DNA of 12,391 nucleotides from Caldifarciminota bacterium (lineage in GTDB: Bacteria; Hydrothermota; UBA3072; B12-G15), in assembly GCA_021163525.1 (NCBI GenBank), contig JAGGTX010000136.1, positions 1 to 12,391 on the forward strand, read 5' to 3'. Positions 1-12,282 of this stretch are shown here, in pieces. Position 1 is the first letter of the stretch; every line of letters begins with the position of its first letter. A model generated the notes under the pieces. It had not been told where the DNA came from and did not search any database. It saw only the letters and a program-made list of their open reading frames with translations. Position numbers and translations under genes: made by a program.

Positions 1-3000
1 ATATCCAGAATGCCTGTCTTGTTCATGGTGCATTCCAGAACCTTCAGGTTATATACAGGCTTGTGGATGATGCATACTGGCTTTATGGAGGACGGTCTCC
101 CATAAACTATCCAGCAAGGGAACTTGGTCCCACAGGTCTGTTTTTCCTTGTGCTGGATGATACGGCCTTTAGCAAAAAATGGATAGGGAAGTCAAGGGAA
201 TGGAGTATGAAGATACTTTCTAACAAGTCTCCTTACAATGTAACCATTGACCCTGTGGGTGGAATTACCCATGAGGGCACGGTTTATTCAGATGGGACAA
301 CATTTTGTCCACTGCTGTTCCTTAAAGCATTGTCAAGGATTGAGCCTGATGTTTTGAACAGTGATAGCCTCACACTTGTCAGGGATAGTCTCCCCCATGG
401 TTTTCTTCATATAATGCTTCCTGAACCGAATATAGATGGTGGGTTTTTACCATTTGCTGACAGGGGTGGGCTTGTAAAGGGGTCTATTGGGACATTGATT
501 CTTAATAATAATATGTTTAATGATAATCTTTCATGTTATATACTCAAAAGGGTGAATAACAATATACTCAAAAGGATATGGGAAGACGGGCCAGGTTCAC
601 CCTACACCCACATTCTTTTCATAAACAGTGATGCAGAACCAGTTCAAACAGATTCAACCCCTGATATGTATTTTCCGCATAATGGCTGGGTTTGCACAAG
701 GAGTGGGTGGGATACAAGCGATGTTTTTGTTGCCTTTAAAACAGGGAGTTTTCACAGCCACCAGCATAATGCAATGAACCACTTTATCTTCACATGGAAT
801 AAATACTATTTGATTACTGATGACATATTCTCATATAAAAATAAAGCGATAGACCACAATACACTTTTAAATGGTCGTGCAGAGGCCGAGGATAGCCAGG
901 GCTATCCACATTTCTGGCGGAGGGGAAAGCCATTGAAGGTTTTCAGTGATAGTGTAATATGTCTTTATGAAGGATTTGTTGATTCAAGAGTTCAATATAA
1001 TGAACCTTACCATGGTAGATGGATAAGGAAGGGTGTGTTTGTAAAACCCCTGAAGTCATTGGTACTGTATGATTGGGGAATTTCAGAGGATTCTACAGCC
1101 CTTAAATGGCGTCTTCGTTTCAGACCCCCTGGAAGTTCCTTTATCTCTATTCAACATGGTGATACAGCCTGGGATTATATATACAAGAACGATACAACAA
1201 AGAAATTCATTATGCGATTCCTCTATCCTGAAGATAAACATGTTGCAATGATTTCTGGAAAGATAAATGTGGGATTCTGGGAAGTGGTTGATACTTTAAT
1301 TCATGGAGGTCAAATTACTCGCCCGCCGGATAATATACCAGACACGACTTACATTTATCATGATACACCTAAAAAAGAGGTAGAATTTCTGAATATGCTT
1401 GGTTTTCTGGATGGTAAAAGATACAGTGTGAATTTGACGAGTTATGTTTTTAATCTCGGGGCACAGATAGAAAATTTTGTTGTGGTTTTTAGCAGGAAGG
1501 TTGATACTTTGATAAAATGTTCATATGTTTTCAGAAACAATGATTCAGTTCCCACATATCATTTTATACCAGATTTTGAATCTCTTACAGACTACTTTTG
1601 TGTAATAAACAATGATACTTCATTGATTAAGAAAGATACCATCTGGAGCGACGAAAATGGACTTATAAGTTTTAAATATGGACCTGCGCATGAGTATGAC
1701 TCTCTCCATGTTATGATTTCAAGGGATATAACACCTCCATCTGCAAAATTCAAACCCGATTGGATTGTTAAGGAAATGTGGGGGAAGAAATTTGCAGCAG
1801 GGGGTAAGTATCCATTTTTCCAGATAAGGGATGATATTTCTGGAAGTTTCTTTTACAGGGTATATGGTGGTAACGGTCTTCTTGGTTGGGGCAGGGACGA
1901 TGGTGAAAGTTTTGCCTTCACAGAGACAACCTTATCCGGTGTCTTGCTGAGGGTTGAGGCTTTTGATAGCATGTTCAACAAAGGTGTATACACTGCTCCT
2001 TATGGCTCAGTGGATATTGGGCCCCTGTATTGCCCACATTACAATGTTCTTAATAGCAATAACCAGAGGAAGACCACAGGTGGAGAAAGACCTGTTCTTG
2101 TGTATGAGGTGAATGGTTCAGTTATTCTTTCTGATTCTACTGACAAATGGAGAAACCATTATCTGGGAGATGGTCATTATCCCTGTGTATGCAGGGATGA
2201 TTCACTCACTCATATTGTTTATGCAAAGAATTCTATGGTGCTTGAACATCTTGTGTGGCCTTATACCGAAAGCAGGAGGGAGATGTTGATTGAAGAGATT
2301 TTTGCTGATACACTATACCACCACAGAATAGAACCCCCGTCATTCGTATTAAAGCATGATACCATATTCACCCTTGTGGGTGTGTTTTCATGGAAGAGGA
2401 TGGCCGAGGAGAATTGGAGTGCAAAATACAGGTTATTTCTTTTGGTCCTTCCATCCGATACTCTCCAGGGTGATACCTGTATAAAGATAGCGCATTATGA
2501 GAAGATCTTTGGTCACATACCCGATACACTGTTCTACTGTCCTTCAATAACCCATTATAAGAACGGAATATATTGTGTATGGAATGTCCCTGATGATTTT
2601 GATTCAACGGGTATATGGCTATATGATGTTTCCTCGGATAAAATAATGAGGGTTTCTGATACATCCTTCTCCCATTCTCCCTATGCTGGTCATTATGCAG
2701 ACGGTATAGATATTGTGTGGATCAATAATGGAAATGTCCTTCACAGGTTTTATAATGGTGTTCTTCATCCTGTGGACACAATCTGCATCGGGAATTTCAT
2801 AAATCCACATATAATAAATGGTAATGTAAGTTCATTCCAGAGGGATTCAACCATATATGTTTATTATTTCAACAGGAAGGAATGGGTTTGCATTGATAGT
2901 TTTGCTGGAACAAATCCATTTTTATTCTATGGTCCGGATAGCTCCATTGGTGTTATGTATAAGAGGCATATAACTGGTGGTTGGAAGATTTGTATGAGGA

Positions 3001-5645
3001 ACATAGGGAGATATCCATGGCACAAGATGGATGATATTGGCCTTCTCTATAACAACCAGAGGAAGGTTGTTGAGGATACAGGGAAGACATATGTATATTT
3101 TACAGATTCAGGGTATGTATACAGATGCTATTCAGAATCAATACCTGAATTTTCAAGGGACTGGTATGTCTGTGAAGGAACCTATCCTTCATGTGATGGT
3201 GGACATTTTATTATCATCAGGGGAGAGAGTTTGATTCTGGATGATTCAGTGGTATTGAAGGTCTTACCTGAAGGGTATATACCAGGTGCACCTGATATTG
3301 ATGAAGATAATGGAATTCTTTATATAGCATTATCACATATTCACAATGTAACAGTGGAAGATATAGCCACGCATTATTCCCTTGAGGTATGTAGATATGA
3401 GGGGCCAGAGAATTTTTACTGGACAACGGTGTATGATACTTTCAAGCTTACCAGTCCGATACCACCAAAATATATAGCAGGTCCTGATATTGTTGTGGAT
3501 AATGGTAAGGGATTTATAGCTTTTGACAATTTTTATGGTGTTTTTCTTGCATTCCTTTATGATGCAGGGGATTCAGTATCCTATATAGGGAATGGTGTTC
3601 ACCCATCACTATATCTTGAAGGGGATTATCTGAACCTTTTATTCAGTGCGAAACCCCTGATTAAACTGAGGAGGATAAACCTATCAACACGGCGTCCATC
3701 ACCGTATCAAATTGTTGGTAATGGTTTTTATCCTGTCTCAGGAAATCTGAATACCATCTTTTATGAAAGAGATGGTTATGTCTATTATAAAAATCTTTAT
3801 CCTGGTGAAGAAGTGGAGATTGATAAAGGAGGAAGTCCTCAATGTATATATAATGGGCCATCACAATATATATTATGTGCATACAACGGAAATGGAAGAA
3901 TGAAGATAAAGAAGATACCGATAAAACCTGTTACCTTTCTTTCTGGTAATGTTAAGGGGAAACTGGAAGGGGATTGTTATATAACCGGTGATATAACAGT
4001 TCCAGATGGAGACACGCTGATTCTTGAGGAAAATACAAAATTTATTATTGCAGATTTTAATGATAAAACAGGAGAAAGCGGGGATATAAAGGTAAGGGTT
4101 GATGGGGTGATGAAGGCCTCTGGTGTGGAATTCACAGGGGAAGGCTGGTATGGAATAGTATCTTCAGGTTATCTTGAATTAAGGAAATGCACCATTTCTG
4201 GTGCTGATACAGGGATAGTGTCAACAGGATACTCTAAAATCTACAAAAACAGGATAAATGCCGGGATAGGGATAGTTTCAAATGGATGTGATTCAATTAT
4301 TGGAAACAGGATTGATGGAAGTAAAAAGGGAATAATTGTGGAAAGAGAAGGAGAATTTATTGGTGCAAACATGTTGTCCAGCTGTGATACAGGAATGGTC
4401 ATAAAATCAAATGTGGAGATTTGCGGGAATGTCTTCAATGGATGTAAGGTGGATCTTGCAGTATTCTCTTCCAATCCCATTCTTGGTAATGCAGAAGAAG
4501 GAATAGGTGGCTGTAATGTATTTACAGGAGAAAGCCTATTTATCTCAGGTTCCTGGGATGGAACCCTGAAGGCTGAAGGAAACTGGTGGGCAGGGGATAG
4601 TGTTTTGGGAAAGATAAGTGGTGGGGATGTTGATATATCACCGGTTGCACTTTCTGGTAGACTTGAGAATAACACAACTCTCATGGGTAATCAGTATATA
4701 ACAGGGACCTTGAAGGTTCCAGAAGGAATATCCCTTGTGGTAAAACCTGGAACCAGATTGTTCTTTGTGAATAATTATAGCACAGAAGGAGATTCATTCA
4801 GTGGCCTTGAGATTTCAGGAAATGCAACGATAGGTCCTGATTGTTGGTTCCGACCTGCTGTTATCACAGATGAAGTTGAGTGGAAGGGTATTATTCTTCA
4901 CACCTCTGTATCCATTATGAGAAATAACATTGCTTGTGCGGAGACAGGAATTTATACAACATCGGTTTTAAGTATGATAAAGAGTTCTATTCTAAATTCA
5001 AATACAGGCGTCTATGTAGATACCAGTGGAATATGCACTATGCAGAAGGATACCGTTAAAGGATGTGATATTGGCATTATGGTAAAGGGAATGGTATCTG
5101 TGAAAAAGAGCGTTATTATGGATAACCATACAGGTGTATATGTTGATGGGAATGGGAACGCAGACATGGGTATTGGATGTGGTAAGAATATTATGGTGAA
5201 TGATGAATGGAATGTATACAACAATACGGAGAATGATATATATGCAAAGAAAAACTGGTGGGGAACCACCGATACCAGCGTGATAAACGAAAAGATATAT
5301 GATAGAAGGGACAACCCTGAAAAGGGAGAGGTTTTCTATATGCCCATACTTGAAGACATGACAGCACTATCAAAGGGAGACTTTTTTGTTCTTTTAACAC
5401 CCGAGATTGTGAAGGTGGAGAATAATATTGGTAGAGGAATATTTAAGATTAGGTTACTCCATCCCGGAGGCAGGGCTAAATTTGAGTTATTTGACATTAT
5501 GGGAAGAAGAATAAGTAAGAAGGAGATAGAGGTAAATCGGGGATTGAACAGTGTAACCCTTAATTTCAGTCTTCCTGATGGAATTTACTTTTTAAGGATA
5601 AAAGGTGGAAGGAATCGTTTCCATAAACTTATCCTGATAAAATAA
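1..5645 (+). CDS. Giant secreted heparinase II/III-like, propeller-like, beta-helix protein with T9SS-type C-terminus (5' partial)
   Basis: The frame has no stop back to base 3, so the gene begins outside the window. A GTG at 63 is only an internal candidate start, and any signal peptide is missing. Domains in order follow. About 63-1100 resembles the heparinase II/III fold (PF07940): an RSGW motif, a His-rich HSHQHN stretch at 753-770, then an ITDD segment and DHNTLLNG. About 2040-3940 is beta-rich and repetitive with no clear family; it looks like propeller blades, and NNQRK recurs at 2058 and 3051. About 3942-5350 holds two parallel beta-helix modules (NosD/pectate-lyase-like). The last 70 or so residues (LFDIMGRR, then LPDGIYFLRIKGG and a basic end) resemble a T9SS type A sorting domain. 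I infer a surface or secreted polysaccharide-degrading or -binding protein. The substrate is unknown. Family assignment is moderately sure; catalytic activity is less so. The stop is TAA, with no clear terminator after it. Confidence 0.85.
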   Translation, partial: IQNACLVHGAFQNLQVIYRLVDDAYWLYGGRSPINYPARELGPTGLFFLVLDDTAFSKKWIGKSREWSMKILSNKSPYNVTIDPVGGITHEGTVYSDGTTFCPLLFLKALSRIEPDVLNSDSLTLVRDSLPHGFLHIMLPEPNIDGGFLPFADRGGLVKGSIGTLILNNNMFNDNLSCYILKRVNNNILKRIWEDGPGSPYTHILFINSDAEPVQTDSTPDMYFPHNGWVCTRSGWDTSDVFVAFKTGSFHSHQHNAMNHFIFTWNKYYLITDDIFSYKNKAIDHNTLLNGRAEAEDSQGYPHFWRRGKPLKVFSDSVICLYEGFVDSRVQYNEPYHGRWIRKGVFVKPLKSLVLYDWGISEDSTALKWRLRFRPPGSSFISIQHGDTAWDYIYKNDTTKKFIMRFLYPEDKHVAMISGKINVGFWEVVDTLIHGGQITRPPDNIPDTTYIYHDTPKKEVEFLNMLGFLDGKRYSVNLTSYVFNLGAQIENFVVVFSRKVDTLIKCSYVFRNNDSVPTYHFIPDFESLTDYFCVINNDTSLIKKDTIWSDENGLISFKYGPAHEYDSLHVMISRDITPPSAKFKPDWIVKEMWGKKFAAGGKYPFFQIRDDISGSFFYRVYGGNGLLGWGRDDGESFAFTETTLSGVLLRVEAFDSMFNKGVYTAPYGSVDIGPLYCPHYNVLNSNNQRKTTGGERPVLVYEVNGSVILSDSTDKWRNHYLGDGHYPCVCRDDSLTHIVYAKNSMVLEHLVWPYTESRREMLIEEIFADTLYHHRIEPPSFVLKHDTIFTLVGVFSWKRMAEENWSAKYRLFLLVLPSDTLQGDTCIKIAHYEKIFGHIPDTLFYCPSITHYKNGIYCVWNVPDDFDSTGIWLYDVSSDKIMRVSDTSFSHSPYAGHYADGIDIVWINNGNVLHRFYNGVLHPVDTICIGNFINPHIINGNVSSFQRDSTIYVYYFNRKEWVCIDSFAGTNPFLFYGPDSSIGVMYKRHITGGWKICMRNIGRYPWHKMDDIGLLYNNQRKVVEDTGKTYVYFTDSGYVYRCYSESIPEFSRDWYVCEGTYPSCDGGHFIIIRGESLILDDSVVLKVLPEGYIPGAPDIDEDNGILYIALSHIHNVTVEDIATHYSLEVCRYEGPENFYWTTVYDTFKLTSPIPPKYIAGPDIVVDNGKGFIAFDNFYGVFLAFLYDAGDSVSYIGNGVHPSLYLEGDYLNLLFSAKPLIKLRRINLSTRRPSPYQIVGNGFYPVSGNLNTIFYERDGYVYYKNLYPGEEVEIDKGGSPQCIYNGPSQYILCAYNGNGRMKIKKIPIKPVTFLSGNVKGKLEGDCYITGDITVPDGDTLILEENTKFIIADFNDKTGESGDIKVRVDGVMKASGVEFTGEGWYGIVSSGYLELRKCTISGADTGIVSTGYSKIYKNRINAGIGIVSNGCDSIIGNRIDGSKKGIIVEREGEFIGANMLSSCDTGMVIKSNVEICGNVFNGCKVDLAVFSSNPILGNAEEGIGGCNVFTGESLFISGSWDGTLKAEGNWWAGDSVLGKISGGDVDISPVALSGRLENNTTLMGNQYITGTLKVPEGISLVVKPGTRLFFVNNYSTEGDSFSGLEISGNATIGPDCWFRPAVITDEVEWKGIILHTSVSIMRNNIACAETGIYTTSVLSMIKSSILNSNTGVYVDTSGICTMQKDTVKGCDIGIMVKGMVSVKKSVIMDNHTGVYVDGNGNADMGIGCGKNIMVNDEWNVYNNTENDIYAKKNWWGTTDTSVINEKIYDRRDNPEKGEVFYMPILEDMTALSKGDFFVLLTPEIVKVENNIGRGIFKIRLLHPGGRAKFELFDIMGRRISKKEIEVNRGLNSVTLNFSLPDGIYFLRIKGGRNRFHKLILIK
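538..585 (+). repeat. 24-bp tandem micro-duplication within the lyase region
   Basis: The 14-base string ATATACTCAAAAGG occurs at 538-551 and again at 562-575, a period of 24 bases. This duplicates the peptide ILKR eight residues apart without breaking the frame. The second half of each unit has diverged. It is probably an old slippage duplication with no wider role. Confidence 0.55.
2058..3940 (+). repeat. Duplicated beta-propeller-like half-units in the giant protein
   Basis: Two stretches start with the same peptide, NNQRK, at 2058-2072 and 3051-3065 (993 bases, 331 codons apart). Each continues in the same order: a short aromatic strand (VLVYE or YVYFT), a Gly-Val turn (GSV or GYV), a Ser-rich segment, a Trp, and then a YP pair before an acidic or Gly-rich turn. 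Similar strand-turn patterns recur later, for example YPVSGNLNTIFYERDGYVYY near 3730-3790. I read this as an ancient protein-level duplication of several blades. The blade count cannot be set by eye. Confidence 0.45.
3942..4652 (+). repeat. Parallel beta-helix module 1 (capped by NWWAGD)
   Basis: The module opens with SGNVKG, then YITGDITVPDGDTLILEENT, a cap typical of right-handed beta-helix proteins. Short rungs follow with the pattern 'x-G-I-V-x-x-G', for example DTGIVSTG and GIGIVSNG, then NRI and NVF Asn-turn rungs. It ends with NWWAGDS at 4581-4601 and a closing IS-G-G-DVDISPVAL strand. The layout repeats in the next module, 711 bases (237 codons) downstream. Confidence 0.6.
4653..5352 (+). 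repeat. Parallel beta-helix module 2 (capped by NWWGTT)
   Basis: This copy matches the order of module 1: SGRLE opening, YITGTLKVPEGISLVVKPGT cap, then rungs such as ETGIYTTS, NTGVYVDTSG and HTGVYVDGNG. It ends with NWWGTTD from 5253 and a closing GEVFYMPIL strand. The NWWG-to-IxD-to-YxPxL ending is a recurring feature of beta-helix surface proteins. Nucleotide identity to module 1 is low, so the duplication is old. Confidence 0.6.
5430..5645 (+). other. C-terminal T9SS type A-like sorting domain
   Basis: The last 70 or so residues form a small beta-sandwich pattern: FELFDIMGRRISKKEIE, an Asn-Arg-Gly turn, VTLNFSLPDGIYFLRIKGG and the basic tail NRFHKLILIK. This matches the usual order of type IX sorting domains (a hydrophobic strand with D-x-x-G-R, then G-x-Y-x-x-x-x at a conserved spacing, then a K-rich end). 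The usual leading NP motif is not obvious here. In the family the domain is cleaved during export across the outer membrane; whether this cell has the full T9SS cannot be seen here. Confidence 0.65.
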
Positions 5646-5697: not shown

Positions 5698-5726
5698 TTG
5701 ACTGATATATTCATTATGGTTATAAT
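5698..5726 (+). promoter_or_regulatory. Near-consensus sigma-70 promoter for the sirtuin operon, predicted leaderless
   Basis: The -35 box TTGACT (5698-5703) and the -10 box TATAAT (5721-5726) are separated by 17 bases, the ideal spacing. The usual start point is about seven bases past the -10 box, near 5732-5734, which is the sirtuin ATG itself. No Shine-Dalgarno sequence lies upstream of that ATG. A TAA stop at 5723-5725, in the sirtuin frame and inside the -10 box, prevents any further upstream start. Confidence 0.8.
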
Positions 5727-5731
5727 CTGGC

Positions 5732-6457
5732 ATGCAGGAAACACTTGAAAAACTCCAGGAATTGATTGATAATTCTAAATATATAGTTGCACTCAGTGGA
5801 GCAGGTATATCCACATCTGCTGGAATACCCGACTTTCGTGGTGAAAAAGGGATTTACTCACTCGGGCTTTATGACCCTTACAGGACATTTGATATTAATT
5901 ATTTCAAGGAAGACCCATCATACTTTTTCCGATTTGCAAGGGAGTTTCTTAAAATCTACGAAGGTGTAAAACCAACAAAGGGGCATATGTTTCTTGCTGA
6001 ACTTGAGAAAAAAGGGAAACTTAAGGTTGTAATAACGCAGAATATAGATGGCCTGCATCAGATGGCAGGTTCAAAGAATGTTATTGAATTGCACGGTAGT
6101 TTCAGGTCAGGTAGATGCCTTTCCTGTGGAAAGGTTTATGATTTTGAGTGGATGAGGAAAACCCTTCTTGAAACAGATGATCTCTACTGCAACTGTGGTG
6201 GTGTAGTAAAACCAGATGTTGTGTTCTTTGGAGAGCCTGTAATTGGTATAGATGAAGCACAGAGGCATAGCGTCATGGCAGACCTGTTCCTTGTTCTGGG
6301 TTCATCCCTTACTGTTCAACCAGCATCCATCCTTCCATACCTGACATCGGGAAGGGTTGTGATAATAAACAAGGGTGATTGTGCTTTTCCAGAGGAGAGG
6401 GCAGAGATAATCCTGAACGATGATATAGACAGTGTTGTTGAGAGGTTGAAATGGTGA
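5732..6457 (+). CDS. cobB: Sir2-family NAD-dependent protein deacylase (sirtuin, CobB/Sir2Tm type)
   Basis: At 241 residues this is the normal length of a bacterial sirtuin, a cytosolic enzyme that removes acyl groups from lysines using NAD+, giving nicotinamide and O-acyl-ADP-ribose. Visible landmarks are the NAD-binding GAGIS (23-27) followed by GIPDFRG, TQNID (102-106), catalytic His121 in ELHGS, and GSSL before the second Rossmann part. The structural zinc cysteines are C129, C132, C153 and C155, the second pair being C-x-C. Overall pattern, including GIY and RFAREF, resembles the Thermotoga class U enzyme. The Tyr/Arg pair (Y-x-x-R) of desuccinylase-type class III sirtuins is absent where I would expect it, so simple deacetylase activity is more likely. 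It is first in an operon and its end overlaps queT by 7 bases. The start is fixed by the in-frame stop just upstream. Confidence 0.95.
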   Translation: MQETLEKLQELIDNSKYIVALSGAGISTSAGIPDFRGEKGIYSLGLYDPYRTFDINYFKEDPSYFFRFAREFLKIYEGVKPTKGHMFLAELEKKGKLKVVITQNIDGLHQMAGSKNVIELHGSFRSGRCLSCGKVYDFEWMRKTLLETDDLYCNCGGVVKPDVVFFGEPVIGIDEAQRHSVMADLFLVLGSSLTVQPASILPYLTSGRVVIINKGDCAFPEERAEIILNDDIDSVVERLKW

Positions 6458-6933
6458 AAAGGTTTGCAAGGATTGCAATAATAGCCGCAGTTTATGTTGC
6501 ATTGACGGTTTTACTTGCACCTATAAGTTTTTACGCATTCCAGGTGAGGATTGCTGAGGCACTCACTGTTCTTCCATTTTTATTCCCCGAAGCTATATGG
6601 GGACTTTTCATAGGTTGTTTTATTGCAAATTTTTTTGGTGGGCTCGGGCTGGTTGATGTGACCGTGGGCAGTCTTTTAACACTTCTTGCTGCTGTTTTAA
6701 CACATCTGACTGCAAAGACCGGCAAGCCATACCTCGCACCCTTACCACCGCTGTTCATAAATGCCTTTGGTGTGAGTGCATATCTTGTGGTTTTGCTTGA
6801 ACCACCATCCCTCCCCTTCCATCTGCCACCGTACCTCCTTTTCGTTATCTCAATCTTTATTGGTGAGGCAATAGCAACCTATGGACTTGGGCTTCCCCTT
6901 CTTTACTTTCTGAAAAGAAAGGAGTGGAATTGA
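6451..6933 (+). CDS. queT: QueT-family ECF transporter S component (putative queuosine-precursor uptake)
   Basis: A 160-residue, very hydrophobic protein with about five or six membrane segments. The stretch QVRIAEALTVLPFLFPEA and the following GLFIGCFIAN and GSLLTLLAAVLT are hallmarks of the QueT family (PF06177). These S components bind a small substrate, thought to be a 7-deazaguanine queuosine precursor, and work with a shared ECF energizing module (A, A', T) encoded elsewhere. No queuosine gene or ECF module gene is in this window, so substrate is assigned by family only. ATG at 6451 has AGAGG (6441-6445) five bases upstream, inside the sirtuin gene. A GTG one codon later is an alternative. 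The 7-base overlap upstream and 4-base overlap downstream suggest translational coupling. No preQ1 riboswitch is possible directly upstream, because that DNA encodes the sirtuin. Confidence 0.85.
   Translation: MVKRFARIAIIAAVYVALTVLLAPISFYAFQVRIAEALTVLPFLFPEAIWGLFIGCFIANFFGGLGLVDVTVGSLLTLLAAVLTHLTAKTGKPYLAPLPPLFINAFGVSAYLVVLLEPPSLPFHLPPYLLFVISIFIGEAIATYGLGLPLLYFLKRKEWN
6918..6924 (+). promoter_or_regulatory. Ribosome binding site that selects a TTG start for the GGDEF gene
   Basis: AAAGGAG at 6918-6924 sits five bases before TTG 6930, a normal spacing. A GTG at 6924-6926, in the same frame, would overlap the last G of the site and leave no spacer, so TTG is the better start. The TTG then overlaps the queT stop as TTGA. 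Confidence 0.6.
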
Positions 6934-8863: not shown

Positions 8864-8879
8864 AGACCATGGGTCTTTT
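8864..8879 (+). terminator. Weak candidate terminator after the GGDEF gene
   Basis: AGACC and GGTCT form a 5-bp perfect stem with a three-base loop, followed by a short run of four T. It lies 17 bases after the stop and just before the next promoter. The stem is short and the T run is interrupted by GG, so termination would be weak; it may be chance. Confidence 0.3.
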
Positions 8880-8881
8880 GG

Positions 8882-8910
8882 TTGACAAGTTCCATATTTT
8901 GCTTTAAAAT
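8882..8910 (+). promoter_or_regulatory. Near-consensus sigma-70 promoter for the glycosyltransferase operon, predicted leaderless
   Basis: TTGACA (8882-8887), a perfect -35 box, is followed after 17 bases by TAAAAT (8905-8910). Seven bases past the -10 box is 8917, the A of the glycosyltransferase ATG. The six bases between are CCTCCC, the opposite of a Shine-Dalgarno sequence. A TAA at 8905-8907, inside the -10 box and in the frame of the gene, blocks any upstream start. Confidence 0.8.
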
Positions 8911-8916
8911 CCTCCC

Positions 8917-10020
8917 ATGAAAGTGGCTCTTGTGCATGATTATCTTAATCAGTACGGAGGTGCAGAAAGGGTTCTGGAGTGTTTTCTGGATATCTTTCCT
9001 GATGCGGATGTTTATACCTTGCTCTATGACAGGAGTAAACTATCAGATAGGCTGAAAGAGATACAACCGATTATCTCATTTCTCCAGAAATTACCATTCT
9101 CAAAAAAATTCTATGAGAGATACCTTCCCTTTTATCCCATTGCAATTGAAGGGTTTAATTTGCTTGACTATGATATAGTCCTTTCTGATTCAAGTGCATG
9201 GACAAAGGGTGTTTTCACGGATGAAAGCACACTCCATATATGCTACTGCCACAGCCCCATGAGATTTGCGTATGAAAACTTTCATGACTTCACTGTTGGG
9301 GAAAACAGGAATAAACTTGAAAAAGGTATCTTGAGACTCCTCATAAACTACTTCAGGATCTGGGATTACGCAGCAGCCCAGAGGGTGGATTATTTTATAG
9401 CAATATCTCACCACATAAAAAAGAGAATTAAAAAGTACTATGGGAAGGACTCTGTTGTTATATATCCTCCAGTTGATACAGATTACTTTTATCCATCCGA
9501 GAGAAAAAAAGAGGATTACTTCCTTGTGGTTGGAAGGTTTAAAGAGTATAAGAGGTTTGATATTGCCATTGAGGCATTCAACCAACTTGGTATCCCACTA
9601 ATTGTAATTGGGGATGGGCCCTTAAAGGGGAAACTTATGAGAATGGCCAGGAAGAATATCCATTTTACAGAGAGGGTTGATGATGCAACACTTCGTGCAT
9701 ATTACCAGAATGCACAGGCACTTGTCTTTACCCCCCTTGAAGACTTTGGTATCGTTCCTCTTGAGGCTCAGGCTTGTGGGACACCTGTTATTGCATATAA
9801 TAAAGGGGGTGCAAGGGAAACTGTTATAGAAGGAAAAACCGGTATATTTTTTGAGGAGCAAACCCCTGAATCACTGATTGAAGCAGTGAGAAGATTTCAG
9901 GGTATGAAGTTCAAAATGAAAGATATGGTGTTGAATGCAAAAAGATTTAATAGGGAACGCTTCAAAAAGGAGGTGTGGGAGTTTGTGATGGAAAAATACA
10001 GGGAGTTTAAGAATGCTTGA
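8917..10020 (+). CDS. Family 4 (GT-B fold) glycosyltransferase
   Basis: The 367-residue product has the normal length of a GT4 retaining glycosyltransferase, a cytosolic or membrane-associated enzyme that moves a sugar from a nucleotide donor to a growing glycan. The N-terminal acceptor half begins [10 protein letters not shown] and GGAER, the usual GT4 opening, and contains CYCHSPMRF. The C-terminal donor half starts with [20 protein letters not shown] and IVIGDGP. It carries the E-x7-E signature as E275 and E283 (EDFGIVPLE), then [17 protein letters not shown]. It resembles lipopolysaccharide O-chain or exopolysaccharide mannosyltransferases of the WbaZ type, but donor and acceptor cannot be read from sequence. 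It is first in its operon and overlaps the J-domain gene by 8 bases. Confidence 0.92.
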
Positions 10021-10615
10021 CCCTTTCAAATTGCTGGGTGTGGACAAGGATGCCTCACCAGAAGAGATAAGAAGGGCCTATTATAAACTGGCAAAGAAGT
10101 ACCACCCAGACCATCTACCAGAAGGTATTAAGGAGACATACATTGAACATTTTCTCAGGTTGACCTGGGCATACAAATTATTGATTGATAAAAAAAAGAG
10201 AGAAGCATACCTCAGGGATGTTGCACTTGGAGAATTTGAAAACGATGCAGAAAAACAGAGGCGTGAGGCAAGGGAAAAACTCTTCAAGGAAGGACTGATC
10301 ATCATAAGAAATAACCCTGTGAGGGCTGAAAAGTATTTGAAGATGGCCTATATACTTGATAAAACAAACCCATTGTTCATGAGTTACTATGGACTTGTTC
10401 TTGTGTTCCTCAACAAGGTGAAGGACGGGATTGAACTCATGGAAAGGGCCCTGCAAAAGGACAGCAACATCATTGAACTCCATTTGAATCTCGCAGAGGG
10501 GCTTTTTTCTGCCGGAAGAATAAGAGAAGCAAAAAGATACCTGAAGAGGGCATCAAGGATTGACAGGAAAAACTCAAGATTATTAAAACTACAGGAAAAA
10601 TTGAAAAGGAGGTAA
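10013..10615 (+). CDS. J-domain protein with C-terminal TPR repeats
   Basis: The 200-residue product starts with a J domain (about 3-65), including [20 protein letters not shown] and the HPD tripeptide at 31-33, which in the family stimulates the ATPase of a DnaK/Hsp70 chaperone. It lacks the Gly/Phe-rich, zinc-finger and substrate domains of true DnaJ. From about 95 to 195 it has TPR-like helix pairs, for example [33 protein letters not shown] and [18 protein letters not shown], a protein-binding scaffold. I infer a specialised co-chaperone or adaptor recruiting DnaK to a particular client. ATG 10013 overlaps the glycosyltransferase end; GGGAG (10001-10005) lies seven bases upstream. Confidence 0.88.
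10604..10612 (+). promoter_or_regulatory. Strong Shine-Dalgarno site for the Roadblock gene
   Basis: AAAAGGAGG at 10604-10612 is one of the strongest Shine-Dalgarno sequences in the window and lies inside the last codons of the J-domain gene. It is four bases from ATG 10617 and ten from a second in-frame ATG at 10623. Neither spacing is ideal, so either start is possible. Confidence 0.65.
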
Positions 10616-10616
10616 T

Positions 10617-10994
10617 ATGGAGATGGAGGGTAATGTCTATATTACCAGGTTGAGTGAATCAACTGCAAGGGTAAAGGGATGTATTGCAGGTGGTATTGTG
10701 GGTATAGATGGTATTGCAATAGCTGAATTCAAGGGAGAGGATGAATTTGACACAACCATAGCCTCGGCTGAACTCGCATCTATCATCGCAGATTCCAGGA
10801 GAATAATTGAAGACCTTAAAGGTGGGGCATTTCAGGAATCCATAACAAGGTCCGAAGATTTAACCCTTGTATCCCGTCAGGTAAACGAGGAATTCTTTGT
10901 GTATCTTGTGTTAAAGGGTAATTTTCAGAACCTTGGTATGGCAAGGTATGAGGTGAAAAAACTGGCAGAGGAGTTTGCTGAAGCACTCTCCTGA
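10617..10994 (+). CDS. Roadblock/LC7-domain protein
   Basis: The 125-residue product matches a single Roadblock/LC7 domain (PF03259): IDGIAIAEFKGEDEFDTTIASAEL near 30-55, an amphipathic helix (SIIADSRRIIEDL), and then the strand pair DLTLVSRQV and FFVYLVLKG followed by a C-terminal helix. Bacterial members such as MglB act as dimeric regulators of a small Ras-like GTPase, commonly in polarity or motility. No such GTPase gene is in the window. The gene sits 1 base after the J-TPR gene and the ComEC frame starts within its last 20 bases, indicating cotranscription. Function is unassigned. Start could be ATG 10617 or 10623. Confidence 0.75.
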   Translation: MEMEGNVYITRLSESTARVKGCIAGGIVGIDGIAIAEFKGEDEFDTTIASAELASIIADSRRIIEDLKGGAFQESITRSEDLTLVSRQVNEEFFVYLVLKGNFQNLGMARYEVKKLAEEFAEALS

Positions 10995-12282
10995 TATTAA
11001 ATCCCCAGCCTTCTTTGTCTTCTGTTTTCTAATTCTGGGAAGTGCCCTGGGGATAATCTTCCCCTTTAAGGTATTTTTAATCACTCTGATTCCTGTTTTT
11101 ATTCTCTCCCTCTGTTTTATCATCCTGAAAAAATGGGACCTATTCATTATTTTAACCCTTGTGTTATCCTCCTTTTTCTATACAGAGAAAAGTGCAGAAT
11201 TATCCCGCAAAAATCCCGTTCACCTTTTTGGTCTAACAATAGAGAACAGGATAATAAGTTTTTCAGGGAACACATATTCAGTTAAAGGCAAAAAACTGGA
11301 GGATGGACTTATAGTGGATATTGTGGGAGATGTGTATTCATACAGGAACTTCAACTACTTAAAAATTAAGAATCTGCGGGTAATCTCAACCTTCTTCTCA
11401 CCCATTTTCAACTGGAGAAAAGGCATAATAAATTCAATCAAAACATCACTCCCTGGCGTAATTGGTGATATTGGAATAGCACTATTACTGGGTGAGAAAA
11501 GTGCAATGCCAGATTTTATAAAAGAAAGGTTCCGTTCCTGTGGAGCAGCCCATCTCCTTGCAGTGAGTGGCCTTCATACTGGCATAATCTTCCTCATTCT
11601 TACTGTGCTCCTATCAATTCTGCCCATAGAGAAAAACTTCATCCCTGTCATTGCATCAGCACTACTGATACCATATCTATTTTTAACAGGTTTCAGGGTA
11701 TCGGTTGTCAGGGCATTCATCATGTTGTTTATCTACTCACTGGGGGACCTGCTCCAGAGAAGGGCAAATCCACTGAATGTGGTTGGTGTTGCTGGATCAA
11801 TTCTGCTTCTTATCAATCCATTAACAATAAAGAGTATTTCGTTCCAGCTATCATTCCTCGCTGTAACAGGTATAATCCTCTTATTAGATGCATTCAATGA
11901 CCTTATTCCACACAAAGGGAATATTCTCCATAAATATATCCTCTATCCAGCATTCATCACAACATCAGCCCAGGTTTTTACATTCCCTGTTGTATTCTAT
12001 AATTTTGGATACATCCCCCTTTACTCTGTATTCGCCAATATAATCCTTGTTCCCCTTACGAGTTTGTTCATCTCCGGGATGATATTGATGGTCTCACTCC
12101 CCTTTTTAAGACCACTCACCTCATCAGGCGTATGGTTTATTGGGATGATTTTCAACAAAATAATGATGGCCTTCCAGCACATGCCATACTCTGTGATAAC
12201 TGGAAGGCCATCTATCTATGTTTTTCTTATTTATCCCTTACTTCTTCTCCTGCTCTTACTCAGGTTCAGGAACTCTCCCTGA
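10975..12282 (+). CDS. comEC: ComEC/Rec2-type DNA-uptake channel, short form without metallo-beta-lactamase domain
   Basis: The 435-residue, strongly hydrophobic membrane protein has two N-terminal membrane segments (about 12-70), an OB-like external domain (about 75-145, matching DUF4131) and the ComEC/Rec2 core, with HLLAVSGLHTGII (VSGLH at 197-201), GFRVSVVRAFIM and ISFQLSFLAVTGIILL. In the family ComEC carries single-stranded DNA across the inner membrane during natural transformation. The usual C-terminal metallo-beta-lactamase domain, present in full-length proteins of 700 residues or more, is absent: it ends directly after the last membrane segment. The only ordinary start codon is TTG 10975, one base after an AGAGGAG site, so the true start could be CTG 10978; the next GTG would lose two membrane segments. 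It overlaps the Roadblock gene by 20 bases. Confidence 0.85.
   Translation: MLKHSPDIKSPAFFVFCFLILGSALGIIFPFKVFLITLIPVFILSLCFIILKKWDLFIILTLVLSSFFYTEKSAELSRKNPVHLFGLTIENRIISFSGNTYSVKGKKLEDGLIVDIVGDVYSYRNFNYLKIKNLRVISTFFSPIFNWRKGIINSIKTSLPGVIGDIGIALLLGEKSAMPDFIKERFRSCGAAHLLAVSGLHTGIIFLILTVLLSILPIEKNFIPVIASALLIPYLFLTGFRVSVVRAFIMLFIYSLGDLLQRRANPLNVVGVAGSILLLINPLTIKSISFQLSFLAVTGIILLLDAFNDLIPHKGNILHKYILYPAFITTSAQVFTFPVVFYNFGYIPLYSVFANIILVPLTSLFISGMILMVSLPFLRPLTSSGVWFIGMIFNKIMMAFQHMPYSVITGRPSIYVFLIYPLLLLLLLLRFRNSP
12153..12212 (-). terminator. Inverted repeat and T-rich tract inside comEC, candidate terminator for the convergent gene
   Basis: GATGGCCTTCCAG (12165-12177) and CTGGAAGGCCATC (12200-12212) are perfect 13-bp complements, with CACA/TGTG able to add a further 4 bp inside the 22-base loop. 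Read on the minus strand, the stem is followed at once by ATTATTTTGTTG, a typical T-rich tail, and lies 54 bases past the minus-strand gene's stop. The plus strand is also T-rich beyond the stem (from about 12219), but several bases away. The repeat is in coding DNA of comEC, and a structural role in that mRNA is an alternative. Confidence 0.55.

Follow-up and report, generated by a model that had tools for sequence, protein, structure and literature searches.

A predicted leaderless promoter at the head of a glycosyltransferase operon in a WOR-3 (Caldifarciminota) bacterium, and the recurrence of its signal

On leaderless mRNAs the ribosome takes a 5′-terminal AUG, as described by Zhong et al. 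(2025; PMC12340547). The genes termed TA-led by Zheng et al. (2011; PMC3160421) carry a TANNNT box about 12 bp upstream of the start and no Shine–Dalgarno sequence, and the box is taken as a leaderless promoter; in that survey of 953 bacterial genomes such genes are described as widespread but not dominant in bacteria. The −10 motif of Deinococcus–Thermus, again TANNNT, lies about 6–7 bp before the open reading frame and is described beside a separate GGAG class (PMC12340547). Experimentally it is reported to be a promoter −10 region and it is described as yielding leaderless mRNA; in D. radiodurans it is attributed to nearly one third of the genes, and the motif alone is reported to be sufficient (PMC12340547).

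We analysed a stretch of 12,391 nucleotides from a Caldifarciminota bacterium, referred to below as the window. It contains a glycosyltransferase gene of family 4 (GT4 kind; 8917–10020, forward strand) with Pfam matches to Glycos_transf_1 (E = 2.5e-31) and Glyco_transf_4 (E = 4.5e-11), and a TANNNT box, TAAAAT, ends 6 bp before its start codon. In the position of this box and in having no Shine–Dalgarno sequence, the site resembles the TA-led genes as they are characterized in PMC3160421.

Predicted promoter elements, operon and a second site in the window

The −35 hexamer TTGACA (8882–8887), a spacer of 17 nt (8888–8904), the −10 hexamer TAAAAT (8905–8910) and the discriminator CCTCCC (8911–8916), which is probably not transcribed, lead directly into the start codon ATG (8917–8919), all on the forward strand. 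This is exactly the arrangement, at the same coordinates, that an earlier sequence-only reading of the locus had described. The two hexamers match the sigma-70-type consensus in 11 of 12 letters, and the spacer of 17 falls within the 16–18 that are needed. Counting on from the −10 hexamer, A8917 is base seven, so that standard spacing places the predicted +1 on the A of the ATG, as had been proposed. Across the −10 box and the discriminator the reading frame is TAA-AAT-CCT-CCC-ATG; the in-frame stop that had been noticed within the −10 box is indeed present at 8905–8907, 12 nt upstream of the ATG. A Shine–Dalgarno core (GGAGG-like) was sought 5–10 nt upstream of the ATG and none was found, the preceding sequence being CTTTAAAATCCTCCC, and the gene does not qualify as a Shine–Dalgarno-led leadered gene.

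The sequence-only reading had also ascribed an anti-Shine–Dalgarno character to CCTCCC, and this claim is not upheld. The hexamer occurs at one of the 39 sites of the genome with a gap of 6 (see below) and lies upstream of the predicted +1. As a general anti-Shine–Dalgarno element it is unsupported, being so rare and presumably untranscribed, though all six bases are conserved in a same-genus relative. It probably has no meaning for translation and is best read as an untranscribed promoter discriminator rather than a translation signal. It is unchanged in this relative although the spacer and the bases further upstream have diverged.

The glycosyltransferase gene and the three genes that follow it lie on the same strand, with ends that overlap or abut. 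The second gene, encoding a J-domain and TPR protein (10013–10615), overlaps the glycosyltransferase stop and has the core GGGAG upstream. It is followed by a Roadblock/LC7-like gene (10617–10994; 22.8 bits, just below the 23-bit cut-off) with a full Shine–Dalgarno sequence, AAAAGGAGG, and by a gene for a ComEC/competence-like membrane protein (10975–12282; PF03772, E = 1.7e-54), the last operon gene in the window. The glycosyltransferase gene has neither the full sequence nor the core. The bases at the predicted 5′ end of the message (8917–8976) have a folding z-score of −1.79, and 10 of 200 shuffled sequences fold at least as well. The glycosyltransferase, J-domain/TPR and Roadblock-like genes are neighbours both in the genus and in two genomes of the same class (window 8917–12282; L032, L033, L114 and L115).

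When both strands of the window are searched for sites with at most one mismatch from TTGACA/TATAAT and a spacer of 16–18, two are found, at 5698 and 8882, and both directly adjoin a gene start. The former is a second predicted promoter of the leaderless type, TTGACT-17-TATAAT-CTGGC-ATG (5698–5734, forward strand), before a Sir2 gene that starts at 5732. A second hit in the window had been claimed in the sequence-only reading, and it is present; its gap is 5, not 6. The −35 hexamer, the −10 hexamer and CTGGC of this promoter are all identical in the same-genus relative (G001, contig L270). A QueT-type queuosine precursor transporter (6451–6933) lies between the Sir2 gene and a gene for a GGDEF protein, an order that is repeated in L270. 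Further upstream, 63–5645 encodes a protein of at least 1860 amino acids with a weak C-terminal match to Por_Secre_tail (24.1 bits, cut-off 27), a match that suggests a possible type IX-like secretion.

Recurrence in the genome and across the phylum

The glycosyltransferase gene is not special in this respect, for the signal is found again at many places in the genome. In the assembly to which the window belongs (G000; 244 contigs totalling 1.38 Mb, with a completeness of 75.6%), the pattern TTGACA-N16-18-TANNNT-N4-8-ATG has 63 matches, one site being counted twice, against a single match for the reversed pattern. Among the 62 distinct sites, the gap between the −10 box and the ATG is 6 in 39; gaps of 4, 5, 7 and 8 are found in four, seven, eight and four sites, respectively. 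The base directly before the ATG (−1) is a pyrimidine, T or C, in 54 of them, and the discriminator sequences otherwise differ. A sample of 342 kb (60 of the 244 contigs plus the window) holds 93 promoter-like sites, 16 of which have an ATG at gap 6, whereas five first-order Markov resamplings of the same sample gave on average 49.2 promoter-like sites and 0.8 cases of an ATG at gap 6. These counts agree with the earlier remark that two hits in one window make coincidence less likely. A peak at gap 6 was also sought for GTG and TTG starts in the 342 kb sample and was not found (two and zero cases).

Larger gaps were searched genome-wide up to 25. Windows of equal width at gaps of 9–13, 14–18 and 21–25 contained 20, 24 and 29 raw matches, which left 12, 16 and 23 distinct sites once each second ATG of a leaderless site and every nested duplicate had been discarded. 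A Shine–Dalgarno core is present in 1 of 12, 9 of 16 and 19 of 23 of these, respectively. The gap counts and the cores together point to two promoter-to-start arrangements, one leaderless and the other with a short leader and a strong Shine–Dalgarno sequence. Promoters of this second class have very short leaders in which a strong core, frequently AAAAGGAGG, immediately precedes the start.

Half of the 62 genome sites (31 distinct sites) fall in the loci that were examined, and 25 of these open a reading frame that has at least 60 codons or runs off the end of the locus; the background in the 342 kb sample is 2875 of 12,636 ATGs (22.8%). Twenty of the 24 proteins other than the glycosyltransferase of the window were compared with Pfam and 19 have a match at E ≤ 0.001, one of them (L017) only below Pfam's own cut-off. 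The proteins include Rho, AlaRS, glutamine synthetase, an Omp85/POTRA protein, a UPF0004/radical SAM protein and the small subunit of exonuclease VII; in Rho, AlaRS, glutamine synthetase, the UPF0004/radical SAM protein and the exonuclease VII subunit the Pfam match starts no more than 12 residues from the start proposed here. At least four of the 31 sites do not stand at the head of a protein gene: two appear to lie inside a gene (L028 and one in L004), and two precede tRNAs, tRNA-Val and tRNA-Arg (L006:1539–1616 and L031:333–405), which begin 5 and 9 bases downstream of the A in the ATG. The spacing at both tRNA promoters fits a normal start point, the ATG there being incidental.

A strict test scores 8 of 78 operon-first genes of the genome as leaderless, one of them also having a Shine–Dalgarno core, against 0 of 156 out-of-frame decoys. 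A core is present in 40 of the 78 (39 with the core only) and neither signal in 31; internal genes give 2 of 119 leaderless and 82 of 119 with a core. Leaderless genes are a minority of the operon-first genes by this test. The sequence-only reading had proposed a search for a −10 box before the operon-first genes of the same genome bin; the box is there in excess over the decoys, and most operon-first genes are not leaderless. A different rule, a −10 box at gap 4–8 of one heuristic start, gives 10 of 78. Among the relatives, the strict test yields 11 of 90 in G001 (decoys 2 of 180), 12 of 66 in G018 (1 of 132), 4 of 81 in G022 (0 of 162), 7 of 97 in G045 (0 of 194) and 1 of 36 in G046 (0 of 72). 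All these fractions are rough, the choice of start being heuristic and G001 having been sampled through contigs with pattern matches.

The pattern is present in every one of 60 genomes of the phylum, the present one included, with 2 to 245 matches on both strands, and most of them have tens of matches compared with 0–12 for the reversed control. Four genomes (G034, G038, G054 and G058) are at or near the control level, and family f8 is low. Within the phylum, counts in families f8, f18 and f27 range from near the control level to more than 200. This variation among families suggests that either leaderless starts or strong −35 boxes have been gained and lost. Absence of leaderless starts from f8 can be rejected, as the f8 genome G018 reaches its 12 of 66 operon-first genes when only three of the six −35 letters are required; the pattern counts therefore understate leaderless starts. 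A further 20 genomes were reached through the protein-search loci, and several of them are apparently the same phylum again: G063 has its matches at the same places as G039, and the counts of G060, G064 and G068 equal those of G009, G032 and G014. Genomes whose records are titled as other phyla have fewer matches per megabase than the 46 of G000, as in a Paenibacillus genome with 37 matches against 18 for the reversed pattern (7.9 Mb), and an excess is still visible in several, such as 20 against 0 in an Armatimonadota genome (6.8 Mb) and 15 against 0 in a Portnoybacteria genome (0.7 Mb). The signal is thus not confined to WOR-3 (Caldifarciminota).

The predicted start point of the message and alternative readings

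Very probably, 8882–8919 is a promoter of the primary sigma factor whose +1 is the A of the glycosyltransferase ATG, giving a leaderless mRNA. This is the best-supported reading because of the peak at gap 6, the conserved footprint, the start backed by homology and the lack of a Shine–Dalgarno core. The leaderless promoter that the earlier reading had proposed for the operon is in this sense sustained, as a prediction from sequence, spacing and conservation.

We infer an active promoter, a precise +1, initiation by 70S ribosomes at the 5′ AUG and co-transcription of the four genes, as follows. The primary sigma factor (sigma-70/RpoD type) would recognize TTGACA and TAAAAT and the start point would lie at the seventh position past the −10 hexamer. 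Transcription by RNA polymerase would yield a leaderless mRNA with a 5′ AUG that spans the glycosyltransferase, J-domain/TPR, Roadblock-like and ComEC-like genes. For the glycosyltransferase, translation would begin at the 5′-terminal AUG, on a 70S ribosome together with initiator tRNA, and the downstream genes would start from their own Shine–Dalgarno sequences. No match to 16S rRNA was found in the genome bin itself. In the same-order relatives G005 and G003 the 3′ end of the 16S rRNA reads GGATCACCTCCTTTC, the canonical anti-Shine–Dalgarno tail, and G011 and G018 of the phylum share this tail up to ...CACCTCCTTT; the text search read one strand, and four further loci gave no tail. With such a tail in its relatives, the leaderless and Shine–Dalgarno routes would coexist.

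A real promoter may instead start transcription 1–5 bases before the ATG, within CCTCCC, giving a near-leaderless message that again has no Shine–Dalgarno sequence. Start-site choice in bacteria varies by a base or two, and the gap differs from 6 in 23 of the 62 sites. In the same-class genome G009 the orthologous gene is preceded by TTGACA-16-TAAAAC at a gap of 10, so that its leader would be a few bases long. The gap distribution has a sharp mode at 6, however, and 54 of 62 sites carry a pyrimidine at −1; both are consistent with a transcript that begins at the A of the ATG, and we regard a start within CCTCCC as unlikely. In another same-class genome, G008, the ortholog is preceded by TTGACT-16-TAAAAT-ATGCGT-ATG, with a gap of 6. 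Many other homologs have a Shine–Dalgarno core or neither signal, and with signals this varied the leaderless start appears to be a local trait of the clade and not of the protein family.

Much less likely still is that the glycosyltransferase is made mainly by read-through from a Sir2–QueT–GGDEF unit, with coupling or reinitiation across the intervening bases and a promoter that is minor or inactive. The GGDEF gene lies upstream on the same strand, 70 nt away, and neither a hairpin search nor folding identified a convincing terminator between its stop and the promoter. A weak hairpin of five pairs followed by a short T-run is present at 8864–8876 (forward strand), with one found against a mean of 0.5 in shuffled sequences and a folding z-score of +0.70. 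A gap of 70 nt without a Shine–Dalgarno sequence is a poor setting for reinitiation. Against read-through also stands the conservation of the promoter elements in G001, where the upstream sequence is not the GGDEF gene. The glycosyltransferase, J-domain, Roadblock-like and ComEC-like genes follow one another there in the same order, while Sir2–QueT–GGDEF is on another contig (L270), with the GGDEF gene cut by the contig end, and no GGDEF match was found in the 216 bases upstream of the glycosyltransferase gene. The promoter had been called independent in the sequence-only reading, and this description is supported, as G001 retains it with the downstream operon and without an adjacent GGDEF gene.

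The conservation of the predicted leaderless promoter was followed in G001, the one same-genus relative available. The closest named record to the glycosyltransferase is QNDZ01000076.1 (isolate B12_G15), in which the glycosyltransferase is 91% identical and the sequence upstream of it is identical to G001 contig C76. Compared with this single relative, the −35 hexamer, the −10 hexamer and CCTCCC are each identical at 6 of 6 bases, the spacer has the same length with 10 of 17 bases identical, and the 25 bases further upstream agree at 6 of 25; the hexamers (12 of 12) are more conserved than the spacer. The examined G000 sequence holds 33 leaderless candidates, nine of which have a partner start in the examined G001 sequence, and the mean identity of these nine pairs is 0.54 for −60 to −42, 0.98 for the −35 region (−36 to −30), 0.76 for the spacer, 0.96 for the −10 hexamer and 0.83 for the discriminator; they are a biased sample, part of the sequence on both sides having been chosen for carrying the pattern. 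Two pairs do not carry this bias, that of the glycosyltransferase, found by protein, and that of Sir2, whose TTGACT is outside the search pattern. In 34 Shine–Dalgarno pairs (from 251 candidates) between the two genomes, identity is flat at 0.86–0.95.

A match arising by chance in AT-rich DNA, or a wrong start with a downstream, Shine–Dalgarno-led start in use, is in our view largely refuted and has a negligible probability: the window does contain many weak promoter-like matches and the aligned first codon is unusual in 10 of 80 homologs, but a chance origin is rejected by the 63 matches against 1 for the reversed pattern, the peak at gap 6, the 16 cases against 0.8 in the resamplings and the 8 of 78 operon-first genes against 0 of 156 decoys, and a wrong start by the homology of the N-terminus. 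In the 80 homologous loci kept, from 181 encoding a relative, the alignment begins at residue 1 or 2 of the query, and the codon aligned with Met1 is ATG, GTG or TTG in 70. This supports ATG 8917 as the likely true start of the protein. A start downstream of Met1 is disfavoured because it would remove the conserved N-terminus.

Relation to known leaderless systems

A literature search of limited reach, with most subscription papers and all preprints outside it, found no report of leaderless starts for WOR-3/Caldifarciminota. As a tentative generalization, which we consider plausible rather than probable, promoters in WOR-3 (NCBI: Caldifarciminota) may favour two distances to the start codon, one giving an exact AUG start and the other leaving a very short leader that carries a near-perfect AAAAGGAGG, with few in between and with the leaderless share gained and lost between families. 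If this is true, the start sites of transcription and translation would be locked together at many WOR-3 operon heads. Gene finders that model only Shine–Dalgarno starts can misplace leaderless ones, which matters for annotating the phylum, and a further lineage is added to the debate on an ancestral or an adaptive origin of leaderless initiation. With the cultivation of a WOR-3 strain reported in 2025 (PMC12285271), the leaderless prediction is directly testable.

The arrangement at the glycosyltransferase gene is a known kind of signal, that of the TA-led genes and of the Deinococcus −10 motif. Compared with the TA-led genes as defined in PMC3160421, the sites counted genome-wide here are also required to have a perfect −35 hexamer TTGACA. 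The counted sites differ from the Deinococcus motif, as described in PMC12340547, in having this strong −35 element, and the share of 8 of 78 operon-first genes in the strict test stands against the nearly one third of genes given there. In combining leaderless and Shine–Dalgarno starts within one genome, the bacterium is like the genomes for which leaderless transcription is predicted by GeneMarkS-2, as presented in PMC9581028.
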